A stretch of DNA of 34,998 nucleotides from Teichococcus aerophilus (lineage in GTDB: Bacteria > Pseudomonadota > Alphaproteobacteria > Acetobacterales > Acetobacteraceae), in the NCBI RefSeq assembly GCF_014490485.1, contig NZ_JACTVA010000053.1, forward strand, positions 1 to 34,998, read 5' to 3'. The position numbers and the translations under genes were made by a program. Below the pieces are notes generated by a model, which was given only the letters and a program-made list of their open reading frames with translations, made no database searches and had not been told where the DNA came from. Shown here piece after piece: positions 13,360-32,770 of the stretch; position 1 is the first letter of the stretch; each line of letters starts with the position of its first letter.

Positions 13360-13380
13360 GGCTGGCCTTTCTTTCGAGGG

Positions 13381-13634
13381 TAGGGCGGCAGGCCGGGGAA
13401 AGAATTCCCCGGACCCCATCTTTCTTTCTGCAAGTCTGGCGCAGCGCTTCAGGTTTGAGAGCGGACGCTGCTTGATGATTCTATCAATGGGCCACGCGGG
13501 CTGAACCCTCAGTCGCCGGATGTCTAAGAGCTCCGGCGCACCCGGCCGTGTTCCAGACCTCAACAGCCTACACAGGCAAACTCGAAAAAAGAAAAGAAGG
13601 GGTCCGGGGAATTCCTTCCCCGGCCTTCACCCTA
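13381..13634 (+). repeat. Composite F1 element A (about 254 bp, inverted ends, three hairpins)
   Basis: The ends are two F1 copies in inverted orientation: left stem CCGGGGAA/TTCCCCGG at 13392-13411, right stem mirrored at 13604-13623. Each has its C4-T-rich tail pointing inward. The interior contains TGAGAGCGGACGCT, GATGATTCTAT, GGGCTGAACC and a central hairpin (CGCCGGA ... TCCGGCG, 13514-13538). All of these recur in element B, and in part in element C. It fills the gap between the convergent HxlR and inositol-phosphatase genes, so each end faces the gene it would terminate. Confidence 0.85.
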
Positions 13635-13669
13635 TGCTTCCTAAAGTGCCCAACGCGTCGCGGTTGCGC

Positions 13670-14491
13670 TTACCCCAGTGCCTCGCACAGGGCTTCCGCG
13701 GCGCCGGGCATGCCGACAACAAGGGGCCGGCGCCAGTCGCGCAGGTCGCCATCCGCGGTCTGGAAGCCTTCGACCTGTTCCCAGCCGGAGGCACCCCTGG
13801 CCAGGGCGATACCGCCGGTGGCGTGGACCAGGGCAACGCCGGCCGCCACGTCCCAGACATTCGGTTTCTCGAATTGCGCCACTTCCATCAGCCCGGCGGC
13901 AACGAAGGCGCATTCGATGGCGGCGGAGCCGGTGCGGCGCGGTTCCCACCTCGCGGGGGAGCGGTGAGAGGCATCGCGGAAACCGCCCAGCTTGCGCCGC
14001 ACGCCGAGATTCTCCCTGCGGGTGACGGGCGATTCGTCGAACAGCAGAGGGCCGCCCTGAATGCAGTGGTACACCCCGGCACGGAGCGCGTGGCTGGAGG
14101 CACACCAGAGTGCGCCGGCCACCGGCACGCCATCCCGCAACACGCCGATGGAACCGCTGAACAGCGGCAGGCCGTTGATGAAGTTGGCGGTGCCGTCCAC
14201 CGGGTCAATCGCCCAGACATAGCCGCCGGGCGTGGTGGGCGGGTTGGGGAATTCCTCGCCCAGGATGTGGTGGCCGGGGAAGGCGGCCTCGATCTCCGCA
14301 CGCAGCACGGCTTCCACCGCGCGGTCGACGTCGGAGACCGGGTCCTTCAACTCGTGTTCTTCCGGCGCCGTCGGCTTGTAGGCAACATCGAGGGGGCGGG
14401 TGAGCGCGGCGGTCATTTCCTCGCCGGCCAGGCGGGCCAGCCGCAGCGCCAGGGCACCGATGGCATCGAGGGATTCGGGGGAATGGTTCAT
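13670..14491 (-). CDS. Inositol-monophosphatase-family phosphatase
   Basis: This 273-residue Mg2+-dependent sugar/inositol phosphatase has the metal motifs GEE at 78-80, WAIDPVDGT at 93-101 and NVWDVAAG near 211-218. The fold also covers HisN (histidinol-phosphatase), CysQ and SuhB; none of their special features is clear. The ATG at 14491 is used because it overlaps the stop of the upstream lipid-kinase gene (TGATG), with AAGGCG ahead of it. Upstream in-frame starts would run into that gene. The coupling suggests the kinase and phosphatase act in related phospholipid or polyol metabolism, but this is an inference. Confidence 0.88.
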   Translation of the reverse strand: MNHSPESLDAIGALALRLARLAGEEMTAALTRPLDVAYKPTAPEEHELKDPVSDVDRAVEAVLRAEIEAAFPGHHILGEEFPNPPTTPGGYVWAIDPVDGTANFINGLPLFSGSIGVLRDGVPVAGALWCASSHALRAGVYHCIQGGPLLFDESPVTRRENLGVRRKLGGFRDASHRSPARWEPRRTGSAAIECAFVAAGLMEVAQFEKPNVWDVAAGVALVHATGGIALARGASGWEQVEGFQTADGDLRDWRRPLVVGMPGAAEALCEALG

Positions 14492-15387
14492 CAGGAACGC
14501 GCCTTCTGCGGTGCGGCAAGGCATTCGGGCGGAATCAGGAAGGTCAGCGGCTCCACCTCGATATGGAAGGAAACCGTGCAGGCCTCGTCGAACTCCTGCG
14601 GTTCGTCGTCCACGCGGATCGGCCCGCCCGGCCAGCGCAGGGTGACGGTGGCGCCGCGGAGGATCTCCACCGGCGGGTGGCCGGCAGCGGGCGCGCGCAG
14701 CCATTCCAGCATCTCGGCCCGCCGCTCGGGCGGCAGCAGCACGACGTCGAGCAGCCCGTTGCCGGGGCGCGATTCCGGCGCCAGCGGCAGGTTGGGGCCG
14801 AAGAGGGGGATGTTCATCACCTCCACCAGCAGGGTCTCCACCACCTGCTCGTGGTCATCGACGCGCAGGTGGGCGTGCACCACCGGTGCCTCGGCCAGGG
14901 CGCGGCGGAATATGGCGCGCCCGGCCTCCACCCCTTCCAGCCCTTCCTCGTCGGCGCTTTCCACCGCCTGGGCAAAGGCACCGAAACCGACGGATTCCAC
15001 GAAGCGGTGCTCGCCGAAGCCGTCCTCCTCCGCTTCCGCAACGGCGAGGTTCAGGTGGCGGTGCGCGGCCTTGGCCCAGCCGGCTGCGAAATGCTCGGGT
15101 GACGGCCAGGGGCCGAGCGCCCGGGCCAGATTGTTGGCCGTGCCCAGCGGCAACACCGCGCAGCGCCGCCCACGCTCGGGCAGGGAGCGGGCGATGCGCC
15201 CCACCGTGCCGTCCCCGCCCGCGATGACGACGAGGTCCCGCAGCTTCTTCAGGCCCTTGCGCAGGGCCTGCCCCTTGGTGCCATACACCTGCACATGCAG
15301 GCCGGCTTCTTCCAGCAAGGCAACCAGCTCTTCCTGGGTGTGCGCTTCCTCGCCCGCATTCGGGTTGTGGAACAATGTGGTGTCCAT
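14491..15387 (-). CDS. Diacylglycerol-kinase-family lipid kinase (YegS/DgkB-like)
   Basis: This is a 298-residue protein. The nucleotide-binding GGDGT is at 57-61 (VVIAGGDGTVGRIA), followed by VLPLGTANNLARALG near 78-91. Both are signatures of the DAGK catalytic domain. The C-terminal beta-sandwich with RVDDEPQEF matches the YegS/DgkB type, in which the enzyme phosphorylates diacylglycerol, phosphatidylglycerol or sphingoid bases at the membrane surface. The ATG at 15387 begins directly with the conserved TLFHNPNAG strand, so the start is secure. It overlaps the following inositol-phosphatase gene by one base. The lipid substrate is unknown. Confidence 0.9.
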   Translation of the reverse strand: MDTTLFHNPNAGEEAHTQEELVALLEEAGLHVQVYGTKGQALRKGLKKLRDLVVIAGGDGTVGRIARSLPERGRRCAVLPLGTANNLARALGPWPSPEHFAAGWAKAAHRHLNLAVAEAEEDGFGEHRFVESVGFGAFAQAVESADEEGLEGVEAGRAIFRRALAEAPVVHAHLRVDDHEQVVETLLVEVMNIPLFGPNLPLAPESRPGNGLLDVVLLPPERRAEMLEWLRAPAAGHPPVEILRGATVTLRWPGGPIRVDDEPQEFDEACTVSFHIEVEPLTFLIPPECLAAPQKARS

Positions 15388-15536
15388 GCCACGCTAACGC
15401 CTGCCCCCGGGCCGGCGTTCCATACGGTCTGGAAACATGTCCGCGACGGGCGCATTCCAATGGCAAGGCCTGTGGGTGGTGCTGGCGTGGCCCCCCGCCG
15501 GCGCGCTATTCTGGAGGATCGCAGGAGGATCCGTTC

Positions 15537-17138
15537 ATGCTGACACGCCGTTCGATGTTGCTGGCTACCAGCGCCGCCGCCGCCTTGCCGGGCGCCCTGG
15601 TGGCCGCCCCCGCGCGGGCCGCGACGCCCCCGGGCGTCATCGTCTTCGCGCGCCAGATCGACGACATCATCAGCCTCGACCCGCATGAGGCGTTCGAATA
15701 CTCGGCGTCCGAGATGTCGGCCAATGTCTACCAGAAGCTGGTGACCACGCCGAACGCCAACCCCACCGAGATCACCGGCGAGCTGGCCGAGAAGTGGGAG
15801 GTCTCGGACGACAACAAGGCCTTCACCTTCACGCTGCGCGAGGGGCCGAAATTCGCCTCCGGCCAGCCGGTGACGGCGGAAGACGTGGCATGGTCCCTCC
15901 ACCGCGTCGTGGCGATGAACAAGAGCCCGGCCTTCATCATCAACCAGTTCGGCTTCACCAAGGACAACGTGGCCGACCGCATCAAGGCCACCGGCCCGCG
16001 CACGGTCGTGCTGACGACGGCGGAGCCGACCGCGCCCAGCTTCCTGCTGTACTGCCTTTCCGCCGCCGTCGGCTCGATCGTCGAGAAGGCCGTGGTCGCG
16101 CCCAAGGCGACCGGCGATGACTGGGGCAATGCCTGGCTGAAGCAGAACTCCGCCGGTTCCGGCCCCTACGCGCTGCGCCAGTTCCGCGCCAGCGAGAGCC
16201 TGATGCTGGACGCCAACCCGCACAGCAACGTGGTGGCCAAGACCAAGCGTATCGTCATCCGCCACATGCCGGATCCGTCCGCGCAGCTGCTGGGCGTGCG
16301 CCAGGGTGACATCGACATCGCCCGCAACCTGGGCGCGGACCAGATCGGCCAGATCCAGTCGGACGGTCGCTTCACCATTCAGCCCTCCCGCAAGGCGAGC
16401 CTGCTGTATCTCAGCCTGAACCAGAAGAACGCCAACCTGGCCAAGCCCGAGGTCCGGCAGGCCATCAAGTGGGCGATCGACTACGCGGCGATCCAGAAGA
16501 ACATCGTCCCCACCACCTACGCCGTGCACCAGTCCTTCCTGCCGGAAGGTTTCCCCGGCGCGCTGACCGACCACCCGTTCAGCCAGAAGGTGGACGAGGC
16601 CAAGGCGCTGCTGGCCAAGGCCGGCCTGCCCAACGGCTTCGAGGTGAGCTTCGACTTCTTCTCCGGCGCGCCGATCTCGGACATCGCGCAGGTGGTGCAG
16701 GCCAACCTTGCCCTCATAGGCATCCGCACCCGCATGCTGCCGGGCGAGATGCGCGCCGTCATCACCAAGACGCGCTCCCGCCAGCATGACATTGCGCTGC
16801 TGCGCTGGGGCTCGGACTATTTCGACCCGCACAGCAACGCCGAAGCCTTCAGCATGAACCCGGACAACGGGGACGAGGCGCGCAACCGCACCCTCGCCTG
16901 GCGCGCCGGCTGGGACATCCCCGAGCTGACGCGCCGCACCGCCGCCGCGGTGAAGGAAGTGGATTCGGCCAAGCGCGCGCAGACCTACCTGGAGATCCAG
17001 AAGGAGCACCAGCAGGTCTCGCCCTTCGTCATCATGCTGCAGGAGATCGAGGTCGCGGTCTCCCGCCCCGGCGTCACCGGCTTCGACATGGGGCCGATGA
17101 ACGACCGGAACTACTACCACAACATCGTCAAGGCCTGA
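15537..17138 (+). CDS. dppA: Peptide/nickel-type ABC binding protein (family 5, DppA-like)
   Basis: This is a 533-residue periplasmic binding protein. The start MLTRRSMLLATSAAAALPGAL with ARA is a signal peptide with twin Arg (possible Tat). SBP family-5 features follow in order: ISLDPHEAFEYSASEMSANVY, ELAEKWEVSDDNKAFTFTLR, FASGQPVTAEDVAWSLHR, SAGSGPYALRQF, the PEVRQAIKWAIDY block, and WGSDYFDPHSNAEAF, the usual ligand-pocket loop. A strong ribosome-binding site (AGGAGG, eight nucleotides ahead) fixes the ATG at 15537. It heads a five-gene importer operon. Family members bind di/oligopeptides, nickel chelates or opines; the ligand cannot be read from the sequence. Confidence 0.9.
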   Translation: MLTRRSMLLATSAAAALPGALVAAPARAATPPGVIVFARQIDDIISLDPHEAFEYSASEMSANVYQKLVTTPNANPTEITGELAEKWEVSDDNKAFTFTLREGPKFASGQPVTAEDVAWSLHRVVAMNKSPAFIINQFGFTKDNVADRIKATGPRTVVLTTAEPTAPSFLLYCLSAAVGSIVEKAVVAPKATGDDWGNAWLKQNSAGSGPYALRQFRASESLMLDANPHSNVVAKTKRIVIRHMPDPSAQLLGVRQGDIDIARNLGADQIGQIQSDGRFTIQPSRKASLLYLSLNQKNANLAKPEVRQAIKWAIDYAAIQKNIVPTTYAVHQSFLPEGFPGALTDHPFSQKVDEAKALLAKAGLPNGFEVSFDFFSGAPISDIAQVVQANLALIGIRTRMLPGEMRAVITKTRSRQHDIALLRWGSDYFDPHSNAEAFSMNPDNGDEARNRTLAWRAGWDIPELTRRTAAAVKEVDSAKRAQTYLEIQKEHQQVSPFVIMLQEIEVAVSRPGVTGFDMGPMNDRNYYHNIVKA

Positions 17139-17150
17139 GACTAGAACTGC

Positions 17151-18272
17151 ATGAAATCCGATGGAGAACTTCAGGCGGAACTGATGCCGCCTGAGGGCGA
17201 ACAGCACGCCGCGCCGCCCCCCGTTCAGGGCATGGCGCGGCGGGCCAGGCCTTCCGCCGCGTGGCTCCGGCTGCGCGGCATCCTGTCCAACCTGGCCAGC
17301 GTGCCGATCACGCTGTTCGGGCTGGCGGTCGTGACCTTCTTCATCGGACGTGTCGTGCCGATCGACCCGGTGCTGGCCATCGTGGGCGACCGTGCGCCGC
17401 AGGACGTGGTGGACCGGGCGCGTCTGGAACTGGGGCTGGACCAGCCGCTCTACATCCAGTTCTGGCGCTATCTCGGCCAGATCGTGCATGGCGATCTCGG
17501 CCGTTCGGTGATGACGTCCAACCCCGTCACGCAGGACATCGCCCGCTTCCTGCCGGCGACGTTCGAGCTGGCGACGCTGGCCATCATCATCGCCGTCGCC
17601 ATCGGCGTGCCGCTGGGCGTCTGGGCGGCAACGCAGCAGGGCAAGCTGGTGGACCAGGCAGTGCGCCTGTTCTGCCTTGCCGGCCATTCCCTGCCGGTCT
17701 TCGTGCTCGGCCTGCTGTCGCTGCTGCTGTTCTACGCCACGCTGGGCTGGGCGCCCGGGCCGGGGCGGCAGAGCATCTATTTCGACGGGATGGTGGACGT
17801 CCATACCGGCATCCTGACCATCGACTCCCTCATCGCCGGCGACTGGCCCGCCTTCTGGGACGCGCTGGCGCATCTGGCGCAGCCGGCCGGCGTGCTGGCC
17901 TTCTTCAGCCTCGCCTATATCGCGCGCATGACCCGCGCCTTCATGCTGGCGGAGCTGAAGAGCGAATACGTCACTACCGCCCGCGCCAAGGGCCTCTCCT
18001 CCGCCCGCATCGTCTGGCGCCACGCTTTCGGCAACATCCTGGTGCCCTTGGTCACCGTGCTGGCCATGACCTATGCCGGCCTTCTCGAAGGCGCGGTGCT
18101 GACGGAGACGATCTTCTCCTGGCCCGGCCTCGGCCAGTACCTGACCGTCTCCCTGCTGAACGCCGACATGAACGCGGTGCTGGGCGCCACCCTCGTCGTC
18201 GGCCTGATCTATGTGGCGCTGAACCTGCTGGCGGACATGCTCTACCGGCTGCTCGACCCGCGGGTGAAATAA
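17151..18272 (+). CDS. dppB: Peptide/nickel-type ABC permease (DppB-like)
   Basis: This 373-residue permease has a hydrophilic N-terminal extension of about 40 residues (rich in Glu, Pro and Arg) before the first helix (LASVPITLFGLAVVTFFIG). The family body is clear: RLELGLDQPLYIQFWRYLGQ, GDLGRSV, and the coupling loop EYVTTARAKGLSSARIVWRH with LVTVLA after it, then VLTETIFSWPGLGQY. The start at 17151 is the only ATG close to the dppA stop (12 nt). A start at the internal Met28 would remove most of the extension. It forms the channel with the next gene product. Confidence 0.9.
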   Translation: MKSDGELQAELMPPEGEQHAAPPPVQGMARRARPSAAWLRLRGILSNLASVPITLFGLAVVTFFIGRVVPIDPVLAIVGDRAPQDVVDRARLELGLDQPLYIQFWRYLGQIVHGDLGRSVMTSNPVTQDIARFLPATFELATLAIIIAVAIGVPLGVWAATQQGKLVDQAVRLFCLAGHSLPVFVLGLLSLLLFYATLGWAPGPGRQSIYFDGMVDVHTGILTIDSLIAGDWPAFWDALAHLAQPAGVLAFFSLAYIARMTRAFMLAELKSEYVTTARAKGLSSARIVWRHAFGNILVPLVTVLAMTYAGLLEGAVLTETIFSWPGLGQYLTVSLLNADMNAVLGATLVVGLIYVALNLLADMLYRLLDPRVK

Positions 18273-18273
18273 G

Positions 18274-19182
18274 ATGAGCGAAACCACCATGAGCCGCCGC
18301 GAGTGGCTCCTCTCCGACACCCCGACCTCCCGCGCCCAGGCCAAGTGGGGCCGGCGCTACCAGACCTGGCTGGCCTTCCGCCGCAACAAGCTGGCCGTCG
18401 CCGGCCTGGGCGTGGTGCTGTTCATGCTGGTGATGGCGCTGCTGGCGCCGCTGCTGGCCACCCACGACCCCGGCGTGCAGGTGCTGGCGGACCGGTTGCA
18501 GAAGCCCTCCGCCGCGCACTGGCTGGGCACCGACGAGCTCGGCCGCGATACCTGGTCCCGCCTGCTCTATGGCGGCCGCGTCACCCTCGGCATGGTCGTC
18601 GCCGTGGTGGTGCTGGTGGCGCCGCTCGGGCTGATCGTCGGCTGCGTCGCCGGCTACATGGGCGGCATCGTCGACAAGCTGCTGATGCGCGTCACCGACG
18701 TGTTCCTGGCCTTCCCGCGCCTGATCCTGGCCCTGGCCTTCGTCGCCGCCATGAAGCCGGGTGTGGAGAGCGCCGTCATCGCCATCGCTCTGACCGCCTG
18801 GCCACCCTATGCCCGCCTGGCCCGTGCCGAAACGCTGACCATCCGCAACGCCGACTTCATCTCCGCCGTGCAGATGACCGGCGCCTCCCGCTGGCGCATC
18901 ATCCTGCGCCATGTGACGCCGATGTGCATGCCGTCCCTGACCGTGCGGGTGACGCTGGACATGTCCTCCATCATCCTCACCGCCGCCGGCCTCGGCTTCC
19001 TCGGCCTCGGCGCGCAGCCGCCGACGCCGGAATGGGGCACCATGATCGCGACGGCACGCCGCTTCATCCTGGAACAATGGTGGGTGCCGGTGATCCCGGG
19101 CATCGCCATCTTCATGGCCAGCCTCGCCTTCAACCTGCTGGGCGACGGGCTCCGCGACGTGCTGGACCCGAAGCAGCGATGA
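18274..19182 (+). CDS. dppC: Peptide/nickel-type ABC permease (DppC-like)
   Basis: This 302-residue permease has the usual DppC/OppC N-terminal region (FRRNKLAVAGLGVVLFMLVMA), then HWLGTDELGRDTWSRLLYGG, the family's periplasmic signature. The coupling loop is DFISAVQMTGASRWRIILRH, followed by GLGFLGLGAQPPTPEWG. It starts 1 nt after the dppB stop, so the two are co-translated. The next gene of the operon is about 300 bp away because composite element C lies between. Confidence 0.92.
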   Translation: MSETTMSRREWLLSDTPTSRAQAKWGRRYQTWLAFRRNKLAVAGLGVVLFMLVMALLAPLLATHDPGVQVLADRLQKPSAAHWLGTDELGRDTWSRLLYGGRVTLGMVVAVVVLVAPLGLIVGCVAGYMGGIVDKLLMRVTDVFLAFPRLILALAFVAAMKPGVESAVIAIALTAWPPYARLARAETLTIRNADFISAVQMTGASRWRIILRHVTPMCMPSLTVRVTLDMSSIILTAAGLGFLGLGAQPPTPEWGTMIATARRFILEQWWVPVIPGIAIFMASLAFNLLGDGLRDVLDPKQR

Positions 19183-19197
19183 ACGGTTTTCGTGTGA

Positions 19198-19460
19198 AGA
19201 ACCGGGGGGAGAATGAATTCTCCCCCCGGGCCCCCCTCATTCTTTTTTGCGAGTTTGGGTTCGGGCTTGAAGGCCGCAGAGCTGCGCTGAACGGCATGGG
19301 GGCATTGGAATCAAAGAGCCCGCGCAGGCTGAACCGTCACTCGCCGAGGGTCATGGACCCCCGGCGGAACCGGCCGGGCAGGGGTGCCACCGCAGGCGCA
19401 TCCAAAAACGCGCAGAAAGACAAGCAGGGGGTTTGGGGGAATTCATTCCCCCATGCTTCC
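19198..19460 (+). repeat. Composite F1 element C inside the dpp operon
   Basis: The left F1 end has an unusually long perfect stem of 13 bp (CCGGGGGGAGAAT / ATTCTCCCCCCGG, loop GA, 19202-19229). The right end, inverted, has TGGGGGAAT / ATTCCCCCA. T-rich tails point inward (TTCTTTTTTGCGAG on the left). The interior shares GGCTGAACC, TCGCCG and a central hairpin (CGCCGAGGGTC / GACCCCCGGCG) with elements A and B. Unlike A and B it does not separate convergent genes; it lies between dppC and dppD, both on the plus strand. Confidence 0.8.
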
Positions 19461-19483
19461 ACTGACCTTCCGGGGATGCCCCT

Positions 19484-20332
19484 GTGACCAAGCCCCTCGT
19501 AGAAATCCAGAATCTCCGCGTCGATTTCCCCACCGCTTCGGGCGGCTACAACCCCGCCGTGCGGGGTGTCTCCATGGCCTTGGGGCGGGAGAAGCTGGGC
19601 ATCGTCGGCGAATCCGGCTCCGGCAAGTCCGTCACCGGCCGGGCTTTGATGCGCCTGTTGCCGGAGGCCGCGCGCGTGCGGGCGGACAAGCTGGTGTTCG
19701 ACGGCGTCGATGTGCTGAACGCATCGGAGCGTACGATGCGCGGGCTGCGCGGCGGCCGTATCGGGCTGATTTTGCAGGACCCGAAATACAGCCTCAACCC
19801 GGTCATGACGGTGGGCGCGCAGATCAGCGAAGCCTGGCGCGCCCACAACAAGGGCGGCAAGCGGGAGGCGCGGGAGGCCGCGCTGAACCTGCTGGAGCAG
19901 GTGCGCATCCGCGACCCCCGCCGCGTGCTGGATTCCTATCCGCACGAGGTCTCGGGCGGCATGGGCCAGCGCATCATGATCGCGATGATGCTGGCGCCGG
20001 ACCCGGCCATGCTGATCGCGGACGAGCCGACCAGCGCGTTGGATGCCAGCGTGCAGGCGGAAATCCTGAAGCTGATCGACGACCTCGTCTCCGCCCGCGG
20101 CATGGGGCTGATGCTGATCAGCCACGACCTGCCGCTGGTGGCCCGCTTCTGCGACCGCGTGGCGGTGATGTATGCCGGCCAGGTGATGGAGACCCTGCCG
20201 GCGCAGGACCTGCATCGGGCCGAGCACCCCTATACCCGTGGCCTGCTGGATTGCATGCCGCATCTCTCCCAGAAGCGGGCGCGGCTGCCGGTGCTGACGC
20301 GTGACCCGAAATGGCTGGAGCAGCATTCGTGA
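19484..20332 (+). CDS. dppD: Peptide/nickel-type ABC ATPase (DppD/NikD-like)
   Basis: This 282-residue ATPase has Walker A GESGSGKS, Q-loop LILQDPKYSLNPVMTVG, signature VSGGMGQR, Walker B LIADEPTSALDAS and switch LISHDLPLV. The end shows HPYTRGLLDCMPHL, the start of the oligopeptide-transporter C-terminal region, but the rest is short. It is smaller than DppD (about 327) and nearer NikD in size. The start is GTG at 19484; its ribosome-binding site is weak, and the repeat element ends 23 nt before it. The stop overlaps the next GTG (GTGA). Confidence 0.9.
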   Translation: MTKPLVEIQNLRVDFPTASGGYNPAVRGVSMALGREKLGIVGESGSGKSVTGRALMRLLPEAARVRADKLVFDGVDVLNASERTMRGLRGGRIGLILQDPKYSLNPVMTVGAQISEAWRAHNKGGKREAREAALNLLEQVRIRDPRRVLDSYPHEVSGGMGQRIMIAMMLAPDPAMLIADEPTSALDASVQAEILKLIDDLVSARGMGLMLISHDLPLVARFCDRVAVMYAGQVMETLPAQDLHRAEHPYTRGLLDCMPHLSQKRARLPVLTRDPKWLEQHS

Positions 20333-21075
20333 CCAAGCCGATGATCGAGGCCGGCAAGCTCAACGTCCATTTCGGCGACAACCACGTCGTCCACGACGTG
20401 TCCTTCAGCGTCGCCGCCGGCGAAACCTTTGGCCTGGTGGGGGAAAGCGGGTCCGGCAAGTCCACCGTGCTGCGCTGTATCGCGGGGCTGGTCGATAGCT
20501 GGGACGGCGTGCTGGCGGTGGATGGCCAGCAGTTGGGCCATAAGCGGGACAAGGCGTTCTTCCAGCGCGTGCAGATGGTGTTCCAGGACCCCTACGGTTC
20601 GCTGCACCCGCGCCAGACGGTGGACCGCATCCTGTCCGAGCCGCTGGCGGTGCATGGCATCCCCGATGCCGAAACGCGCATCACCAAGGCGCTGGAGGAG
20701 GTGGCGCTGCCGCGCACGGCGCGCTTCCGCTATCCGCACCAGCTCTCCGGCGGGCAGCGGCAGCGTGTGGCGATCGCCCGCGCGCTGATCGCCAACCCCT
20801 CCGTGCTGCTGCTGGACGAGCCGACCAGCGCGCTGGATGTCTCCGTCCAGGCGGAGGTGCTGAACCTGCTGGCGGATCTGCGCCAGGCGCGGCAACTGAC
20901 CTGCATCCTGGTGTCCCACAACCTGGCCGTGGTGGGGCATCTCTGCCGCCGGCTGGCGGTGATGCAGGGCGGCCGGATCGTCGAGATCCTGACCGAGGAC
21001 CAGCTGCGCGCCGGCCAGTCCAACCACGCCCATACACGGGACCTGATCGCGCTGTCGCACGAGCTGGAGGGCTGA
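20329..21075 (+). CDS. dppF: Peptide/nickel-type ABC ATPase (DppF/NikE-like)
   Basis: This is the second ATPase of the importer, 248 residues. Walker A is GESGSGKST, the Q-loop VFQDPYGSLHPRQTV, the signature LSGGQRQR, Walker B LLLDEPTSALDVS and the switch VSHNLAVV. It ends soon after NHAHTRDLIALSHELEG, so the C-terminal oligo_HPY domain of DppF (about 334 residues) is missing; the size fits NikE-like members. GTG at 20329 overlaps the dppD stop; the ATG at 20341 is an alternative start. It is the last gene of the operon, with an F1 hairpin 33 nt after its stop. Confidence 0.9.
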   Translation: MTKPMIEAGKLNVHFGDNHVVHDVSFSVAAGETFGLVGESGSGKSTVLRCIAGLVDSWDGVLAVDGQQLGHKRDKAFFQRVQMVFQDPYGSLHPRQTVDRILSEPLAVHGIPDAETRITKALEEVALPRTARFRYPHQLSGGQRQRVAIARALIANPSVLLLDEPTSALDVSVQAEVLNLLADLRQARQLTCILVSHNLAVVGHLCRRLAVMQGGRIVEILTEDQLRAGQSNHAHTRDLIALSHELEG

Positions 21076-21107
21076 GGCCGGTCGAGCCTCGAACTCGGCC
21101 GGGGAGG

Positions 21108-21160
21108 AAGGTCAGGGGAATGAATTCCCCTGAAACCCCTTCTTTTTTCTGCCAGTTGCG
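21108..21160 (+). terminator. F1 hairpin repeat, solo copy 3 (putative terminator)
   Basis: A perfect 10-bp stem TCAGGGGAAT / ATTCCCCTGA with loop GA (21112-21133) is followed by AACCCC and TTCTTTTTTCTGCC. It lies directly after the dppF stop in sense orientation. TCA/TGA replaces the CCG/CGG of other copies, so pairing is kept. Confidence 0.8.
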
Positions 21161-21552
21161 TTGAGGCGTGGGCAGGCGTGTCCAGGCCATGCGGCCTATC
21201 GTGGACCATCCAAATTGGCCCGTTTGGCACCGGCTTGGCTATCGATCTGCCTGAAGCTGGCTCTCGCCATCCTGAAGGCGGCTGCCTTTGTGCAGTGGAA
21301 GGCCCAGGGTTCCTGCCAAAGCGTTTGGCAACCAGTTTGCCGCCTGCCGCCTGCCGCCTGCCGCCTGCCGCCCACGGCCACACGTTTCGACATGATCCTA
21401 GGCTACAGCCCGCGTCATGCCAGGCCCCGGTCGTCAAAGGCCATCGACTTTGGTGACAATGGTTACCAAACATCGTCATTCGCCTGCCCATCCTGCAAAC
21501 CCTGCCTTGAGCAAGGCGCCGTCAGTGTCAGCCAGACCACTGATGGCGGGGT
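21161..21552. other. Gene-free stretch between the dpp operon and the small exported protein gene
   Basis: I see no supported gene. It holds a 7-bp inverted repeat TGCCAAA / TTTGGCA with loop GCG (21314-21330) and a heptamer tandem repeat (21339-21373). The remaining sequence is unremarkable, with composition somewhat less GC-rich than the coding regions. Confidence 0.5.
21339..21373. repeat. Heptanucleotide tandem repeat (GCCGCCT x4, then GCCGCCC)
   Basis: Four exact 7-bp units and a fifth differing in the last base lie head to tail in a non-coding stretch. This is probably slippage-derived and the copy number may vary between strains. Confidence 0.9.
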
Positions 21553-21600
21553 CTGGGGTGGTCCTGCCACCCCAGCGGGGTCCAGGGGCAGCGCCCCTGG
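21553..21600 (-). repeat. F2 two-hairpin repeat, copy 2 (putative terminator)
   Basis: There are two perfect hairpins: CCAGGGGC / GCCCCTGG around AGC (21582-21600), and CTGGGGTGG / CCACCCCAG around TCCTG (21553-21575). They lie about 50 nt after the stop of the minus-strand gene at 21652. The layout is the same as at 11815-11870 with different stem sequences. There is no T-tract. Confidence 0.6.
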
Positions 21601-21651
21601 CCTTGCCTTCAACCCGAACTCAATGCCTCGGACCCGGGGGCCACGCTTGCC

Positions 21652-21909
21652 CTACCGCCCCTGCGCCACCCGCAACGCGCGGCGCAGCCGGGCGATGCCG
21701 GTGCGGATATGCCCGGTGCGGCACAGCAATTCGCCTTCCTCGCCCAGGCCGCGCGCGGGCTGTTGCACGCCGGCGGGCAGGGTGGCCAGCCGGGCGACCA
21801 GTTCCTGGCAGTAATGGAGATCCTGCGGCAGCGTCCTCAGCTCGGCTGGGAAGGCGACACGTGATGGAGCGGACATGACGGAGAGCGCGAGCAGAAGCCG
21901 GGGAAGCAT
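21652..21909 (-). CDS. Small exported protein of unknown function
   Basis: This is an 85-residue protein with an N-terminal hydrophobic segment (MLPRLLLALSVMSAPSRVAF) that fits a signal peptide. The body has LHYCQELVARLATLP, GEEGELLCRTGHIRTGIARL and RRALRVAQG, with two Cys that could pair in the periplasm. I do not recognise a named domain; the pattern resembles small conserved proteins of related bacteria. The start is set at the Met beginning the signal (21909) rather than 21927, because the latter adds six polar residues. It lies upstream of nothing on its strand but an F2 hairpin, and downstream of the sensor kinase gene by 95 bp. The coding call is moderately secure. Confidence 0.6.
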   Translation of the reverse strand: MLPRLLLALSVMSAPSRVAFPAELRTLPQDLHYCQELVARLATLPAGVQQPARGLGEEGELLCRTGHIRTGIARLRRALRVAQGR

Positions 21910-22004
21910 ACCCGCATCATGCAGCATGCCGCGCTAACAGGGGGTGAGCGCGGCATGAAGCCTTGGTCATACCTGCAGGATTGGCGCCGCCGCCCTTGCC
22001 TGGT

Positions 22005-24471: not shown

Positions 24472-24475
24472 TCAG
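24452..24475. promoter_or_regulatory. Inverted repeat CTGACAA-N10-TTGTCAG, possible operator
   Basis: There are perfect 7-bp arms around AGGTTTAAGG. The spacer side also contains AAGGTTT-AAGGTTG, a 7-bp direct repeat. It lies about 290 bp before the response-regulator start and overlaps the stop codon of the minus-strand gene at 24472. It could be a regulator site or a weak terminator. Confidence 0.3.
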
Positions 24476-24792: not shown

Positions 24793-24924
24793 CGCTGGCC
24801 TCTGTCATCATCGCCGGACCCGACCGGCATCAACGGAGACGCAGGATGGCATGCGTCCCGCTGAGCATGAACAGAGAATCGTCTCTTTTTGTGTCTCTCG
24901 TCCAGAAACGAGATAAACGAGACT

Positions 24925-27132: not shown

Positions 27133-27194
27133 GGCAGCAGCTCCCGGCAAGGGCATCGCGCCAATGTGGGGTCGGGGCGGGGCGAACGCTAGGA

Positions 27195-28109
27195 CTACGA
27201 ACGATTCGTGAACGCGGACTCCGGCCCAAATTCACTGGCGACCCAGTCGATGAAGCTGCGCAGCTTGGCGGTGGGCCGCCGGTCGGCGGGAAACAGCAGG
27301 TGCATGGGGCGGGCGGGTGGCGTGTAGCCCGGCAGCAACGGCACCAGCAGGCCCTGCTGCAGCGGCGCGCGCAACATCGCCTCGGCACCCAGGATGATGC
27401 CGAAGCCGGCCAGGGCGGCGTTCAGCAGCGCCTTGCTGTCATTGGCCTGGAAGCGCCCGCCGATCGCCACCGCATGCTCCACCCCGTCGCGGCTGAAGCG
27501 CCATTCACGCGCGACCGGCGAGCGCCATTCGCTGAAGCCGAGACACTCATGGCCGCGCAGGTCCTGCGGCGTCGCCGGCGTGCCATGCGCCGCCAGATAG
27601 GCCGGCGCGGCGCAGGCCAGCAGGCGGTAGGGCGCCAGCGGGCGCGCCGCGAGGGTGGAGTCGCGCAGTGCCCCCAGGCGGATCACCGCCTCGAAGCCCT
27701 CCTCCACCAGATCGACCATGCGGTCCGACAGCGACAGCTCCACCTCCACCGCCGGATGTGCCGTCAGGTAGCGCGCCAGCATCGGGGCCAGGCAGTGCGC
27801 GCCGAAGGTGACCGGCGCGTTCACCCGCAGCCGCCCTCGCGGCGCGGCGCGCAGGTCCTGCGCCAGCGCGTCGGCGGCCGCCGCCTCGGCCAGCACGCTG
27901 CGGCACCGCTCGCAATAGGCGCGGCCGAACTCGGTCAGGCTCTGGCGGCGCGTGGTGCGGGTCAGCAGGCGGCTGCCCAGCCGGTCCTCCAGGAAGCGCA
28001 CATGCTTGCCGACCATCTGCGGCGACATCCGCAACGCCGTGGCGGTGGCAGCGAAGGAGCCGGTGTCGGCCGCCTTCACGAAGACGGCCATGCTGGTCAG
28101 GCGGTCCAT
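27195..28109 (-). CDS. LysR-family transcriptional regulator
   Basis: This is a 304-residue LTTR. The N-terminal winged helix is [55 protein letters not shown], as in the AaeR/DsdC-like group. The effector domain starts near [20 protein letters not shown]. The start at 28109 gives the standard length. It is divergent from an NADP-binding oxidoreductase across about 100 bp, so that gene is its likely target. The last bases of the gene overlap a LexA-type box belonging to uvrB. The effector is unknown. Confidence 0.93.
27199..27213 (-). promoter_or_regulatory. LexA (SOS) box, GTTC-N7-GTTC, ahead of uvrB
   Basis: On the minus strand it reads GTTC ACGAATC GTTC, an exact match to the direct-repeat LexA operator known from alphaproteobacteria. 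It lies 67-81 bp before the uvrB ATG and overlaps the 3' end of the LysR gene. A third half-site (GTTC) lies at 27184-27187. Confidence 0.75.
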
Positions 28110-28156
28110 CCGATTGCATCCATCTGGTTTCGGGAGTTCGCCCGGGATGCCGCATT

Positions 28157-28176
28157 ATCGCCAGCCGATGGGCGAT
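28157..28176. promoter_or_regulatory. Inverted repeat in the LysR/oxidoreductase intergenic region
   Basis: ATCGCC and GGCGAT flank the 8-nt AGCCGATG, 38-57 bp before the oxidoreductase ATG. Its position suits a LysR binding site, although the classical T-N11-A core is not obvious. Confidence 0.35.
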
Positions 28177-28213
28177 GCACAGTCCGCCGCGACAGCCAAC
28201 AGGAGAACGTGGC

Positions 28214-28882
28214 ATGCGGATCGGAATCATCGGCGCGGGATATATCGGCCAGGGCATCGCCCGACTGGCCCTGCGGGCGGGGGACGAAGTGATGATCGGC
28301 AATTCGCGCGGGCCGGAGACGCTGTTCAGCGTGGCGACGAGCCTGGGGTGCCTGGCTGGCACGGCAGAGCAGGTGGCGGCGTTTGGTGGCGTGGTGCTGG
28401 TCGCGGTGCCCTTCCGTAACATCGGCGCACTGCCAGCGGCCGCCCTGGCGGGCAAGGTCGTGCTCGACCCCAACAACTATTACCCGCAGCGGGACGGGCA
28501 GATCGCGGCGCTGGACGAGCGCGCCACGACCACCAGCCAAATGCTGGCCGGGGCGCTGCCGGGTGCCCGGGTGGTGAAGGCCTTCAACGCCATTCTGGCG
28601 GAGGACCTCGGCACGGACGGGCGCCCCGCCGGCACGCCCGGGCGGCGCGCCCTGCCGATCGCGGGCGACGACGCCAGGGCCAAGGCGCAGGTGGCCGCGC
28701 TGCAGGACCGCTACGGCTTCGACGTCGTCGATGCCGGCGGGCTGGCCGAAAGCTGGCGGTTCGAGCGTGCCAAGCCGGCCTATTGCCGGCGGCTGGACAG
28801 CACGGCCCTACGCGCCGCGCTGGCGGCGGCGGAGCGCGACGTGGAACTGCCGCACCACTCCTGGCACGCGGACGATCGCTGA
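28214..28882 (+). CDS. NADP-binding oxidoreductase (F420:NADP reductase-like fold)
   Basis: This is a 222-residue protein with an N-terminal Rossmann fold. GAGYIG at 7-12 is the dinucleotide loop, and IGNSRGPETL after the second strand is a typical NADP 2'-phosphate pocket. VVLVAVPF and KVVLDPNNYYPQRDG follow, as in the coenzyme F420-dependent NADP reductase / NADPH-binding family (pfam F420_oxidored). Most bacterial members act without F420 on unknown substrates. AGGAG eight nucleotides ahead sets the ATG at 28214; an upstream ATG at 28175 would add 13 unrelated residues. It is likely controlled by the divergent LysR protein. The substrate is unknown. Confidence 0.85.
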   Translation: MRIGIIGAGYIGQGIARLALRAGDEVMIGNSRGPETLFSVATSLGCLAGTAEQVAAFGGVVLVAVPFRNIGALPAAALAGKVVLDPNNYYPQRDGQIAALDERATTTSQMLAGALPGARVVKAFNAILAEDLGTDGRPAGTPGRRALPIAGDDARAKAQVAALQDRYGFDVVDAGGLAESWRFERAKPAYCRRLDSTALRAALAAAERDVELPHHSWHADDR

Positions 28883-28904
28883 GGCGTAGCGGCCGGCGGC
28901 GGCG

Positions 28905-30170
28905 TCAGGCCGCCGCCACCTCGCGCAGCGTCACGCCCAGGGCCGCCAGGTCGCGCCAGTATTCCGGGTAGGTCTTGGCCACGCAGCCCGGGTCCAAGAT
29001 GGTCACGCCCGGCACCAGCAGGCCGGCCAGGGCCATGCTCATGGCGATGCGGTGGTCGGCGTAGGTGGTGATGTGCGCGGGGCGGAAGTGTTCGCGCGGC
29101 TGCGGTGTCACCACCAGGTCGTCGCCGTCCTCGACGGCCAGGCCGGGGGCGAGGCGGGCGAGCTCGGTGGCCATGGCGGCCACGCGGTCGCATTCCTTCA
29201 CCCGCAGGTTGGCAATGCCGGTGAAGCGCACGGGGGTGGCGTTGAAGGCCGCCATCGCCGCCAGCGTCGGCACCGCATCCTGCATCTGGGAACCATCAAT
29301 CTCGGCCGGCAGGTGCGGGAAAGCGGCGATCAGCGCGTGGGCCTTGGCGTCGGGCTGGGTGAAGGCCTGGGCGGGGGTGCCAATGTCGATGGCGCCGCCG
29401 GTCAGGACTTCGGCCGCCCAGAGATAGGTGGCGGCGGAGGCATCCGGCTCGATATGGAAGTCCGCCGCGCGATAGCCGGTGGGCTGCACGATCCAGGTGG
29501 CGGCGTCCGGCTGTTCCACCGTGGCGCCGAAGGCGCGCATGGCGGCCAGCGTCAGGTCGATATAGCCGCGCGCGCCGATGGCATCCCCGGCGAGCGAGAT
29601 GCGCACCGGGTGGCGGCCACCCGCCGCCAGCATCAGCACGGCGGAGACATACTGGCTGGAGAGGCCGGCATCGATGGTGACGGCCTGGCCCGGGAAGCCG
29701 CCCTGGCCACGCACGGTCACCGGCGGGCAGCCGGTGGGGGCCTCCACTGCGATGCCCAGGCTGGCCAGTGCCGCGACCAGGGGCGCGATCGGCCGCTTCT
29801 GCATATGCGCGTCGCCGGTGATGACTACGGGGCCATCGGCCAGCGCGGCGGCGGCGGTCAGGAAGCGTGTGGCGGTGCCGGCATTGCCCAGGAACAGCGG
29901 CGTGGCGGGGGCGCGCAGCCGGCCCTCGCTGGTCACGGTGAAGCTGGTGGCGTCCGGCTCCTCCACCGTCACGCCCATCTGGCGCAGGGCTTCGGCCATG
30001 TAGCGGGTGTCGTCGCTCTTCAGCGCGCCGGTCAGGCGGCTGGTGCCGCGCGCCAGCGCCGCCAGCAGCAGCGCCCGGTTGGTGATGGATTTCGACCCCG
30101 GCGGCGCCACGTGCCCGCGCAGCGGCCGCCCGGGCGGCGTGATGGTCAGGGCGCTGGCCGTGGTGGTCAT
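28905..30170 (-). CDS. aroA: EPSP synthase (3-phosphoshikimate 1-carboxyvinyltransferase)
   Basis: This 421-residue enzyme joins shikimate-3-phosphate and PEP in aromatic amino-acid synthesis. Key motifs are PPGSKSITNRALLLAALARG near 23-42, LKSDDTRYM, LGNAGTATRFL at 94-104, HMQKRPI, DASAATYLWA, VKECDRVAAM and DHRIAMSMALAGL. The residue after the conserved Arg of the NAGTAxR motif is Phe103, where E. coli AroA has Pro101. Phe here, together with a VKECxR block, resembles the EPSPS domain of fungal AROM proteins as I recall it. The ATG at 30170 overlaps the fpr stop as ATGA, giving strong coupling. An upstream start would lie inside fpr. Confidence 0.95.
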   Translation of the reverse strand: MTTTASALTITPPGRPLRGHVAPPGSKSITNRALLLAALARGTSRLTGALKSDDTRYMAEALRQMGVTVEEPDATSFTVTSEGRLRAPATPLFLGNAGTATRFLTAAAALADGPVVITGDAHMQKRPIAPLVAALASLGIAVEAPTGCPPVTVRGQGGFPGQAVTIDAGLSSQYVSAVLMLAAGGRHPVRISLAGDAIGARGYIDLTLAAMRAFGATVEQPDAATWIVQPTGYRAADFHIEPDASAATYLWAAEVLTGGAIDIGTPAQAFTQPDAKAHALIAAFPHLPAEIDGSQMQDAVPTLAAMAAFNATPVRFTGIANLRVKECDRVAAMATELARLAPGLAVEDGDDLVVTPQPREHFRPAHITTYADHRIAMSMALAGLLVPGVTILDPGCVAKTYPEYWRDLAALGVTLREVAAA

Positions 30171-30976
30171 TTCTCGACGAAGGCCTTCTCGATGACGTAG
30201 TGGCCGGGGCGGCTGTTGGCGCCTTCCTCGAAGCCCATGCCTTCCAGCAGGGCCTTGGTCTCCGCCAGCATCTCCGGGCTGCCGCACAGCATGATGCGGT
30301 CATCTTCCGGGTTGAAGGCGGGCAGGCCGAGATCGGCGAACAGCTTGCCGCTGCGGATCAGATCGGTCACCCGGCCGGTGTTGCGGAAGGCCTCGCGCGT
30401 CACGGTGGGGTAGTAGAGCAGCTTGGGGGCGACGATCTCGCCCAGCAGCTCGTCCGCCGGCAGCTCGCGCTCGATATAGTCACTATAGGCCAGCTCCTTT
30501 ACCTCACGCACGCCGTGCAGCAGCACGATGCGCTCGAACCGGTCGTACACGTCCGGCTCGCGGATCAGGGACATGAAGGGCGCCAGGCCGGTGCCGGTGC
30601 CGTACAGCCACAGCGTCTTGCCCGGCAGCAGCGCGTCCGGCACCAGCGTGCCGACGGCCTTCTTGCCGACCAGGATCTCGTCGCCCGGGCGGATATGCTG
30701 CAGCCGGCTGGTCAGCGGCCCATCCGGCACCTTGATGGAGAGGAACTCCAGGTGCTCGTCATACGGCGCGGAGGCGACGGAATAGGCGCGCACCAGCGGC
30801 TTGCCCTCCACCACCAGCCCGATCATCACGAACTGGCCTGCGGTGAAGCGCAGGCCGGGCTGCCGCGTGCAGCGGAAGCTGAACAGGCGGTCGGTCCAGT
30901 GATGCACCTGTTCCACCGTCTCGGTGAAATAGGCGGGGTGGGCGGCCTTCAGTGGCGGGCGGGTCTCGGCGTTCAT
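30167..30976 (-). CDS. fpr: Ferredoxin(flavodoxin)--NADP+ reductase
   Basis: This 269-residue flavoenzyme moves electrons between NADPH and ferredoxin or flavodoxin. The FAD site RAYSVAS is at 63-69 with GPLTSRLQHI after it. The NADP site GTGTGLAPFMSLIRE runs from 126, followed by LLHGVREVKELAY. The C-terminus AFVEK, rather than a terminal aromatic, is that of the bacterial Azotobacter/Rhodobacter-type reductases. The ATG at 30976 is the family start; its ribosome-binding site is weak. The gene overlaps aroA by four bases. The pairing with aroA has no evident metabolic logic. Confidence 0.94.
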   Translation of the reverse strand: MNAETRPPLKAAHPAYFTETVEQVHHWTDRLFSFRCTRQPGLRFTAGQFVMIGLVVEGKPLVRAYSVASAPYDEHLEFLSIKVPDGPLTSRLQHIRPGDEILVGKKAVGTLVPDALLPGKTLWLYGTGTGLAPFMSLIREPDVYDRFERIVLLHGVREVKELAYSDYIERELPADELLGEIVAPKLLYYPTVTREAFRNTGRVTDLIRSGKLFADLGLPAFNPEDDRIMLCGSPEMLAETKALLEGMGFEEGANSRPGHYVIEKAFVEK

Positions 30977-31121
30977 GGGCTGCAAGTGGTCTTCTTCAAC
31001 GTGCCGGGCAAGTCTGGTGACATGGGCCAGGGCCAAAGTCTGAGCCAGGGTGAGACAGGCATGGAGCCGGGGCATGGCATGGCTTGCAAGCGGCCGCGGT
31101 TGCGGTGAGCATCCGCCTATC

Positions 31122-31844
31122 ATGAGCACGACCACCGACGCCACCCCGCAAGCCGCCCCCCCCGTAGGCCCGGAGGTCGACCCGACCCCGCGCCCGCTGC
31201 CCGCCCGCATCCCCCACCGGGGCGCGAGCGTGACGCTGGAGCCGCTGGGCGTCCGCCATGCGGAAGAGCTGTGGCAGTCCATGCAGGCCGATGGGCCGAA
31301 TGGCAGCAGCGAGGATAGCTGGGCCTATCTGGGCTACGGCCCCTTCGCCGATTTTGCGACCTTCCGCCGCTTCATCGGCGGTTTCGCCACCACGCATGAC
31401 CCGATCGCCTGGGCGGTGCGGCCACATATCTCCGGCATCGCCTCCGGCTGGCTGACGCTGATGGAGATCCAGCCCGCCAATGCGGCGATCGAGCTGGGCA
31501 ATATCTGGTTCGCGCCACGCATGCAGCGTACCCGCGCCACCACCGAGGCGATGTTCCTGCTGATGCGGCATGCGATGGACGAGCTCGGCTACCGCCGCCT
31601 GGTGTGGAAGTGCAACGCGCTCAACGCCCCCTCCCGCCGTGCCGCCGCGCGGCTGGGCTTCACCTATGAGGGCGAGCACCGGGCACATCTGGTGGTGAAG
31701 GGCCGGCGGCGGGACACCGCCTGGTACTCCATCCTGGACGATGAATGGCCGACGCGGCGGGATGCCATTTTGGCCTGGCTGGACGATGCCAATTTCGACC
31801 ATCGCGGCGTCGCGCGGCGCAGCCTGAATGTTGCCGGAATATAA
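31122..31844 (+). CDS. GNAT-family acetyltransferase (RimJ/RimL-like)
   Basis: This is a 240-residue protein. It opens with a Pro-rich lead, then a RimL-type acetyltransferase body: VTLEPLGVRHAEELWQSMQA, AWAVRPHISGIASGWLTLME, AIELGNIWFAPRMQRTRATT (acetyl-CoA binding region) and YRRLVWKCNALNAPSRRAAA with RLGFTYEG, the classical family end. The ATG at 31122 lacks a good ribosome-binding site but precedes the conserved body by the right distance. Members acetylate ribosomal protein N-termini, aminoglycosides or small metabolites. I cannot assign the substrate. The gene is divergent from fpr. Confidence 0.88.
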   Translation: MSTTTDATPQAAPPVGPEVDPTPRPLPARIPHRGASVTLEPLGVRHAEELWQSMQADGPNGSSEDSWAYLGYGPFADFATFRRFIGGFATTHDPIAWAVRPHISGIASGWLTLMEIQPANAAIELGNIWFAPRMQRTRATTEAMFLLMRHAMDELGYRRLVWKCNALNAPSRRAAARLGFTYEGEHRAHLVVKGRRRDTAWYSILDDEWPTRRDAILAWLDDANFDHRGVARRSLNVAGI

Positions 31845-31912
31845 CCCGGATTTAATTTGGCTGCTTGAATTCACCCGGGCATAACATGGCGCTTCCGCAA
31901 GGAGCATGCGCC

Positions 31913-32482
31913 ATGCCCGATACCCCGCCGCCCTACGCCGCCTTCGAAGGCGCGCGCCTGCTGGCCATCGGCGAACTGCCGCAGGTCGCCCTGCGCGCCA
32001 AGGAGGCGCTGGACCGTGGCTCCAGCGCCCCCGTCCTAGTCTTCGACAACCAGACCAGCCAGCAGGTGGAGGTCGATTTCCGCGGCCAGCCGGGCGATGT
32101 GCTGGAGCGCCTGGCCCCGCCGCCGCGCCGCCCCGGCCGCCCCAAGCTGGGCGTCGTCGCCCGGGAAGTGACGCTGCTGCCCCGCCACTGGGAATGGCTG
32201 GCCCAGCAGCCGGGCGGTGCCTCCGTCGCGCTGCGCAAGCTGGTGGAGGAGGCGCGCCGCAGCCACTCCGGCACCGATCGCCGCCGGACCGCCCAGGAAA
32301 CCTGCTACCGCTTCATGCACACCATGGCCGGGGACCGCCCGGGCTTCGAGGACGCCGTCCGCGCCCTCTACGCCGCCGACCGCAACCGCTTCGAAACCCT
32401 GGCCCGCGCCTGGCCCGGCGATATCGGCGAACACGCCTGCCGGCTGGCCCTGGCAGTGTGGGACGCCGTGCCGGCTGAGTGA
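31913..32482 (+). CDS. DUF2239 family protein
   Basis: This is a 189-residue cytoplasmic protein. It has PVLVFDNQTSQQVEVDFRG, then RRPGRPKLGVVAREVTLLPR and HWEWLAQQPGGASVALRKLV, which define DUF2239. A second part has TCYRFMHTMAGDRPGFEDAV, RALYAADRNRFETLARAWPG and DIGEHACRLA. The RPGRPKLGV...LPRHWEWL core resembles a small DNA-binding motif and could point to a regulator, but the function is unknown. AAGGAG eight nucleotides ahead fixes the ATG at 31913. Composite repeat element B starts 17 bp after the stop. Confidence 0.88.
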   Translation: MPDTPPPYAAFEGARLLAIGELPQVALRAKEALDRGSSAPVLVFDNQTSQQVEVDFRGQPGDVLERLAPPPRRPGRPKLGVVAREVTLLPRHWEWLAQQPGGASVALRKLVEEARRSHSGTDRRRTAQETCYRFMHTMAGDRPGFEDAVRALYAADRNRFETLARAWPGDIGEHACRLALAVWDAVPAE

Positions 32483-32498
32483 GGGAAAGGGAAGGAGA

Positions 32499-32751
32499 AG
32501 GGAAGGCCGGGGAAGGGATTCCCCGGACCCCTTCTTTTTCTTTTTCGAGTTTCTCGGGCGTGGCTGTTGAGAGGGTAGTCCTGAAATACGGCTGGGTGCG
32601 CCGGAGGTCCTAGACCTCCGGCGACTGCGGGTTCAGCCCTTGTGGCCCCTATATAAAATCATCAGAAGCGTCCGCTCTCAGTCCTGCAGCGCAACGCCAA
32701 GCTCGCAGAAAAAAAGAAGGGGCCCGGGGAATTCTTCCCCGGCCTTCCCTA
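32499..32751 (-). repeat. Composite F1 element B (about 253 bp, inverted ends, three hairpins)
   Basis: The reverse complement aligns along its whole length with element A: two F1 ends (stems at 32507-32526 and 32724-32742) and the shared interior blocks TGAGAGCGGACGC, TGATGATT and GGGCTGAACC. The central hairpin is perfect (CGCCGGAGGTC / GACCTCCGGCG, 32599-32623). It exactly fills the space between the convergent DUF2239 and lipoprotein genes. T-rich tails point inward. Confidence 0.87.
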
Positions 32752-32770
32752 AGCAACCCCGACAAAGACG

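Follow-up and report, generated by a model that had tools for sequence, protein, structure and literature searches.

A lineage-amplified composite palindromic repeat of Teichococcus aerophilus, a putative bidirectional terminator and insulator of gene 3' ends, mainly at convergent junctions

Introduction

The 34,998-nucleotide stretch of the Teichococcus aerophilus genome analyzed here (RefSeq assembly GCF_014490485.1, contig NZ_JACTVA010000053.1, positions 1 to 34,998; hereafter, the window) carries three similar elements of about 254 bp, at 13381-13634 (element 1), 19198-19460 (element 2), and 32499-32751 (element 3), which raise the question of what they are and why they lie where they do. 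An initial annotation, made from the letters of the window, had described inverted end hairpins around a shared interior and had suggested a non-autonomous mobile element, either BIME-like (bacterial interspersed mosaic element) or a miniature inverted-repeat transposable element (MITE), a structured RNA, or an insulator. We propose, with a probability of about 0.58, that the elements are lineage-amplified composite palindromic repeats serving as a putative bidirectional terminator and 3'-end insulator, mainly where genes converge.

A large dispersed family in the T. aerophilus genome

Used as a query, element 3 yielded 535 first-look candidates in the T. aerophilus genome, and the best 40 of them (the query itself and 39 at 84-88%) all matched near full length. 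The counts that follow come from 812,727 bp (14%) of this genome, comprising contigs C75, C97, C13 (1-120,000), C24, C49, C51, and the window. This sequence held 73 near full-length copies together with 87 partial matches, and an end-only model recognized 232 end units. When successive end neighbours within 1 kb were compared, 98 faced each other (+-), versus 7 ++, 6 --, and 4 -+, and 36 ends were solo. The facing pairs spanned 152-515 bp (209-268 bp in 72 of the 98) and enclosed a conserved core in 69 cases and other interiors in the remaining 29. Extrapolation to the whole genome gives about 509 full copies and 683 pairs, values that may be high because the scanned contigs were partly picked for strong matches, C97 alone contributing 23 of the 73 near full copies. 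The initial annotation had named two outcomes that would speak against its grouping, a lack of further copies and interiors alike only at chance level; instead, copies are many and profile matches strong. The three window elements are members of a large, dispersed, non-coding family, which we read, from its sequence, as a lineage-amplified, BIME-like composite palindromic repeat.

Placement relative to genes

Genes were called with a codon-score script (652 genes), which is not an annotation, and the junctions between them were sorted by the direction of the flanking genes. Paired elements were present at 57 of the 99 convergent junctions, at 35 of the 448 tandem ones, and at 5 of the 98 divergent ones (convergent versus the rest, Fisher p 9e-29); with solo ends included, the occupied junctions numbered 67, 46, and 6. 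The tandem-gap elements lay closer to the 3' end of the upstream gene in 31 of 35 cases, the median distance being 29 nt to a 3' end and 130 nt to a 5' start, and none of 194 element flanks overlapped coding sequence by more than 20 nt. Sorting the gaps by how much other DNA they contain gave occupancies, convergent versus tandem, of 15/18 versus 1/51 at 10-40 nt, 14/21 versus 8/61 at 40-100 nt, 11/19 versus 9/69 at 100-200 nt, and 9/17 versus 12/56 at 200-400 nt. No junction carried two complete pairs, whereas 12.5 such junctions would be expected, and at least 4 arose in each of 2000 runs, if elements fell independently within each class. Within tandem gaps, the core pointed in the same direction as the genes in 12 cases and in the opposite direction in 10, that is, evenly (82 of the 98 pairs were used in this and in the end-pairing comparison below).

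The same direction of placement was observed in two other genomes, the loci there being centred on copies. In Acetobacteraceae bacterium AT-5844, 24 cores lay at 12 convergent, 9 tandem, and 1 divergent junction and at 2 edges, in loci holding 22, 57, and 22 junctions of the three classes; in a genome of a second genus (G176), 25 cores lay at 9 convergent, 15 tandem, and 1 divergent junction, in loci holding 22, 94, and 22. The early idea of a BIME-like, non-autonomous mobile, or insulator module came close, since the family is dispersed, lineage-amplified, species-variable, and placed like a 3'-end insulator.

Anatomy and the preserved unit

From outer to inner, the consensus end consists of a purine-rich flank, AAGG, CCGGGGAA-NGAA-TTCCCCGG, ACCCC, TTCTTTTCTTTTTT, and CGAGTTT. 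An element runs from such an end through an interior to a mirror-image end, with the two hairpins about 170 bp apart, and the core has an 11-bp stem, CGCCGGAGGTC/GACCTCCGGCG, a 3-base loop, and then a conserved tail. A profile built from own-genome copies placed the three window elements at 13386-13632 (-), 19208-19451 (-), and 32498-32750 (+), within about 10 bases of the ends first proposed, and the inverted hairpins with inward T-rich tails were seen in all three. Element 1, a near full-length copy on the minus strand, has by reading an end hairpin CCGGGGAA-AGAA-TTCCCCGG at 13393-13412 with an inward pyrimidine tract and a second, inverted one at 13604-13623; its core, matched by covariance model R1 at 13470-13547 (-), comprises a central hairpin (13514-13538) and the conserved tail. 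Element 3, near full-length and on the plus strand, has by reading the hairpin CCGGGGAA-GGGA-TTCCCCGG at 32507-32526 and an inverted second one at 32724-32742, with the R1 core match at 32590-32667 (+) (central hairpin, 32599-32623). Elements 1 and 3 can be aligned over their full extent (I1-I3, 74-86% complementary). Element 2 is a diverged member on the minus strand (91 bits, E 6e-27 in a 218-kb set), in which we read the end hairpin CCGGGGGGAGAATGAATTCTCCCCCCGG at 19202-19229, the central hairpin CGCCGAGGGTC-ATG-GACCCCCGGCG at 19342-19366, and the second end hairpin at 19434-19453.

By reading, the interior blocks said to be common to all three elements hold in element 2 for GGCTGAACC and TCGCCG and are missing there for TGAGAGCGGACGC and GATGATT. 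The compensatory change from A-T to G-C in the central hairpin was likewise seen, along with one A.C mismatch in element 2 and two mismatches in element 1.

Among 30 core sequences, 10 cells of the core stem carried changes on both of its sides, a number reached by none of 500 shuffles (best slid controls, 3), four pairs had double changes (2/500), and there were 8 pair types versus 6.2 (36/500). The second genus has the stem CGCCGGAGAGC/GCTCTCCGGCG, which is 99.7% paired within G176 and covaries little (one pair with double changes, 72/500 shuffles; 33 distinct rows, including short reverse-strand readings, fitted to the model), so that support for the core stem comes mainly from comparison between genomes and between subfamilies. 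We rejected a further short hairpin, CTGA/TCAG, in the tail of the core, since its 88% pairing came with zero double changes.

The fold of element 3 is stable on both strands (z, -8.8 on + and -10.4 on -; 0 of 200 shuffles as good). At stem position 2, the two ends of an element match in only 38 of 82 elements, versus 69-82 of 82 at the other seven positions, while pairing within the local end stems holds in 1274 of 1312 cells (against a mean of 1173 and a maximum of 1189 in shuffles). At 80 positions where the ends differ from each other, both local pairs were retained in 61. Since local pairing is better kept than end-to-end pairing, we take the local end hairpin to be the unit preserved, through compensatory change.

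Putative bidirectional termination

Where two genes converge, both transcripts have to be stopped. In the reading that we favour, RNA polymerase arriving from either gene would meet the first end hairpin with its U-rich tract and stop, so that neither transcript would enter the opposing gene. Rho-assisted termination with protection of the 3' end may act alone or beside termination proper. The symmetry of the element would make its orientation irrelevant, which would explain the even core orientation. Copies may spread through transposition or gene conversion by some enzyme, with selection retaining those at junctions and removing those from promoter regions. We also count in favour of termination that the slot appears replaceable, as relatives carry another GC-rich hairpin or a diverged analogue at convergent junctions (see below). 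The arrangement resembles bidirectional intrinsic terminators in its inverted hairpins, each followed by an inward pyrimidine-rich tract, and differs from them in that two hairpins about 170 bp apart surround a conserved core and are homologous across the genome.

Several observations weigh against termination. Unlike in an intrinsic terminator, the U-rich tract does not directly follow the stem but starts 5-7 nt later, and a simple terminator scan of 13000-22000 and 31000-34998 flagged no end hairpin; its totals were not above shuffles (4 versus 4.5; 0 versus 1.8), with one match inside element 2. In predicted folds of 177 of the 196 ends, the purine-rich flank pairs with the tract in 171, and at least 5 U in the next 8 nt are left free in only 43; swapped flanks performed about as well (-8.65 against -8.81 kcal/mol), indicating that this pairing is a matter of composition. 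The consensus fold (alignment A1, in which row L009 stands in reverse orientation) and single folds energetically favour the long end-to-end palindrome, with a covariation term of -0.04. The excess at convergent junctions is nearly gone once a gap contains more than 400 nt of other DNA (4/17 versus 5/36). Three or four end units occur at 9 of 645 junctions (7 convergent, 2 tandem), two of them nested as ++--, so that exclusion to one element per junction is not strict. A second end type, described below, has no U tract where read. A terminator would have a polar effect at the position of element 2, between two genes of one ABC-transporter cluster. Finally, 3' ends are also where one would find a selfish repeat that does no harm and is purged from promoters.

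If the termination reading is true, a single spreading repeat family supplies this bacterium with many of the terminators at its convergent gene pairs. In sister species, the different modules at the same junctions would offer a comparative set for palindrome spread without RAYT (REP-associated tyrosine transposase; REP, repetitive extragenic palindrome) and for host recruitment, and with the covariance model and end profile the family can easily be mapped in other genomes.

Turnover and modular ends among relatives

Among named relatives, a 373-residue permease is closest to that of Acetobacteraceae bacterium AT-5844 (95%), followed by Pseudoroseomonas wenyumeiae (90%), P. ludipueritiae (88%), and P. 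cervicalis (84%); genomes G006 and G038 were taken as AT-5844 and G013 and G040 as P. ludipueritiae from identical match coordinates. When 42 of the 73 own copies (score of at least 180) were clustered with 20 AT-5844 copies, the nearest neighbour was a same-genome copy in 62 of 62 cases, and the AT-5844 copies formed one clade. The closest own pair is only 91% identical, so the clustered own copies are not recent.

Along a 20-kb stretch with five copies, AT-5844 is without the element at three orthologous gaps, and Roseomonas sp. E05 likewise at two of those three; at the convergent element-free gap, both carry, by reading, a different GC-rich hairpin. Comparison of orthologous gaps, as first proposed, thus showed the element to be absent from AT-5844 at three of five tested loci. 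The remaining two copies flank a block of about 9 kb, and the joined gap in AT-5844 holds a diverged analogue. This block (L050 7345-16706, contig C54) lies between two same-orientation copies; the genes to either side of it are adjacent in AT-5844 and P. cervicalis, and the block is elsewhere in AT-5844, which suggests a possible rearrangement at element copies.

The element 2 junction has a relative of the element in AT-5844 (62.7 bits) and is nearly gapless, without an element, in P. wenyumeiae and P. ludipueritiae. At this permease/ATPase junction, we read an apparent small open reading frame with a hairpin in E05 (L067, ~11962-12532) and unrelated double hairpins in P. cervicalis and GC11 (L064, L066). 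The P. wenyumeiae orthologue of the element 3 junction holds a short reading frame (ThiS-like by eye) and is not a simple empty site. At a P. cervicalis junction matching two T. aerophilus elements (L145, ~1363-1501), we read a composite repeat of another kind, with the end TTCTTTTTCTGAAGAAAAAGAA and inner AGTTTGGCG.

The covariance-model search of relatives that had been suggested for the family matched the core in 10 of 17 genus genomes (best 150 candidates per genome) and in a second genus. Among the best 31 candidates per genome, 9 of 150 genomes of the order had matches: four of the own genus (T. aerophilus included), two of the second genus (at least 31 and at least 30), and three further genomes in which one or two matches, all weak, were seen; these counts partly include the stem read on the opposite strand. 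End hairpins were typed within 190 nt on each side of 130 cores. The AATTCCCC type stood on both sides in 57 of 66 cores of T. aerophilus, 21 of 24 of AT-5844, 3 of 4 of G007, and 1 of 1 of G009, and a GGGGTG..CACCCC-like type in 3 of 3 of G001, 2 of 2 of G003, 3 of 5 of G013, and 1 of 2 of G002. Hybrids with one end of each type occurred in T. aerophilus (1), G012 (1), and G019 (2). For G176, where the search patterns are too narrow, an end was recognized on one side only in 13 of 16 and on neither side in 3 of 16. In the loci read, the end hairpin is mostly followed inward by ACCCC or a close variant. The core is thus shown to persist while the end type changes, across two genera. A bolder picture, which we offer tentatively, would be of modular, genus-spanning mobile terminators, with a persistent core, swapped ends, per-species amplification filling most convergent junctions, and mobilization by something other than a RAYT or a transposase that leaves duplications.

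Mobility and comparison with known repeats

REP/BIME repeats and REPINs with their RAYT transposases are known from enterobacteria and Pseudomonas. The present family resembles them as inverted pairs of dispersed extragenic palindromes in high copy (the 98 facing pairs), with 3'-end placement and lineage-specific populations; it differs in its greater length, in the conserved core that separates its two palindromes, and in the lack of a RAYT-type match. PF01797 (RAYT/Y1 transposase) had no match in the genomes of T. aerophilus or AT-5844, on which a RAYT/Y1 mobiliser was rejected; elsewhere, it matched 1 of 12 genus genomes examined (G005, weakly) and 5 of 14 control genomes, E. coli among them. 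By reading, neither a GTAG nor a CGTC tag stands at the palindrome foot in the consensus ends AAGGCCGGGGAA..TTCCCCGGACCCC.

The main family has terminal inverted repeats (about 60 bp of inverted ends in the consensus). For 86 of the 98 pairs, target-site duplications of 2-9 bp were not in excess over shuffled pairs; the main-family copies are old, and duplications may have decayed. At 77 anchorable ends of own copies scoring at least 140, an outer repeat was found at 3, and a TA signal was absent. No adjacent facing ends more than 515 bp apart, as a larger related element with the same ends would show, were found in the 812,727 bp with 4 kb allowed, and no transposase-bearing partner was seen in the scanned sequence.

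A minor subfamily behaves differently. It has outer inverted repeats TAGGGCNGATCGACATTCGG, and at 42 motif-chosen ends the boundary, 7 nt before GATC, was TA in 11, CA/TG in 21, and other in 10, with no clear conservation beyond the dinucleotide. The genome has 49 GATCGACATTCGG-like sites, and the facing pairs read off start 254-294 bp apart, the exception being one possible 4-kb pair on C72; on this spacing, a transposase between the outer repeats was rejected. One outer-repeat element is nested in the core-hairpin loop of another copy (C97:26376-26945), with both sides visible, and one side was read of a second nested case (L309). In its TAGGGCNGATCGACATTCGG ends and its TA or CA/TG boundary (32 of 42), the subfamily is like TA-targeting MITEs such as Correia and RUP, and it looks like the MITE of a TA-targeting transposon. 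The MITE suggestion therefore finds support in the minor subfamily only, the main family lacking duplications, a TA signal, and, at all but 3 of 77 ends, the outer repeat. The main family falls short of both nearest kinds, BIME/REPIN and MITE, on one defining trait of each. In several minor-subfamily elements, a 22-bp palindrome, GCGTAAACGTATACGTTTACGC, replaces AAACCCC after the end hairpin, sometimes changed or partly seen (C24 ~68250, C51 ~55970, C75 ~62870, and C97 ~64330, ~121190, and ~124310).

ERIC, RIME, CIR, and other repeats of about 100-250 bp are alike in size class, imperfect overall palindrome, and intergenic position and are unlike the window family in that its core and end modules occur in different combinations. 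A phage or plasmid source was set aside, with zero matches among phage records and one plasmid record (P. cervicalis) giving a 37-base end-hairpin match. Rfam 15 gave no match at gathering score in window positions 13000-34998 or in seven loci (none of the latter at E up to 0.1); the two window matches lie far below it, one of them, to Mnt IRES (19.7 bits against a required 100, E 0.31), overlapping part of element 2. In titles and abstract openings of the open-licence literature, we found no description of a dispersed repeat in Roseomonas or Acetobacteraceae; one report gives CGTC repeats as missing in Acetobacteraceae (PMC3733652).

Alternative explanations

The competing explanation that survives best, which we consider rather unlikely, is a selfish dispersed repeat of REPIN or MITE kind with no host role, its 3'-end placement reflecting removal from genes and promoters. 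Its lineage-specific clusters, presence/absence between relatives, nested insertion, and TA/YR-bounded (pyrimidine-purine) subfamily would all be expected of such a repeat, as would the nearly free divergent junctions (5/98) and the similar convergent and tandem occupancy of long gaps. It does not readily explain why short gaps are filled far more often when convergent (15/18 versus 1/51 at 10-40 nt; 14/21 versus 8/61 at 40-100 nt), why two complete pairs never share a junction, or why compensatory change keeps the end stems.

An improbable alternative is a DNA-level chromosome-structuring element, a cruciform or a site for gyrase, a nucleoid protein, or condensin where convergent transcription piles up positive supercoils. 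The convergent-gene bias and even orientation fit this, as do the analogy with BIMEs and the capacity of the whole element to fold as one long hairpin; yet at stem position 2 the two ends match in only 38 of 82 elements, with the local pairs staying, even if the other seven positions match in 69-82 of 82. That the core is transcribed between two terminators, as a small RNA or as a structured RNA of another strand-specific kind, is very improbable despite its conservation with covariation across the genus and a second genus, and this reading was rejected on the even core orientation and the lack of an accepted Rfam match, with many copies per genome and no sigma-70-like site in 13000-22000 or 31000-34998 (other promoter types being outside the scan).

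Further features of the window

Element 1 lies between convergent genes for an HxlR-type regulator (+) and an inositol-phosphatase-family protein (-), and element 3 also has convergent neighbours. Element 2 occupies the tandem gap between the permease and ATPase genes of the oligopeptide ABC-transporter cluster. Profile searches also identified solo end units at 1460-1518, 21106-21161, and 34001-34081, and a further one lies at 11417-11493, with a weak copy of the minor subfamily's outer motif at 11399. A short inverted repeat, GGGGATGCCCC, was read at 19461-19484, just 5' of the GTG start of the ABC ATPase gene, and its AT-5844 counterpart is TGGGGATTCCCCA.

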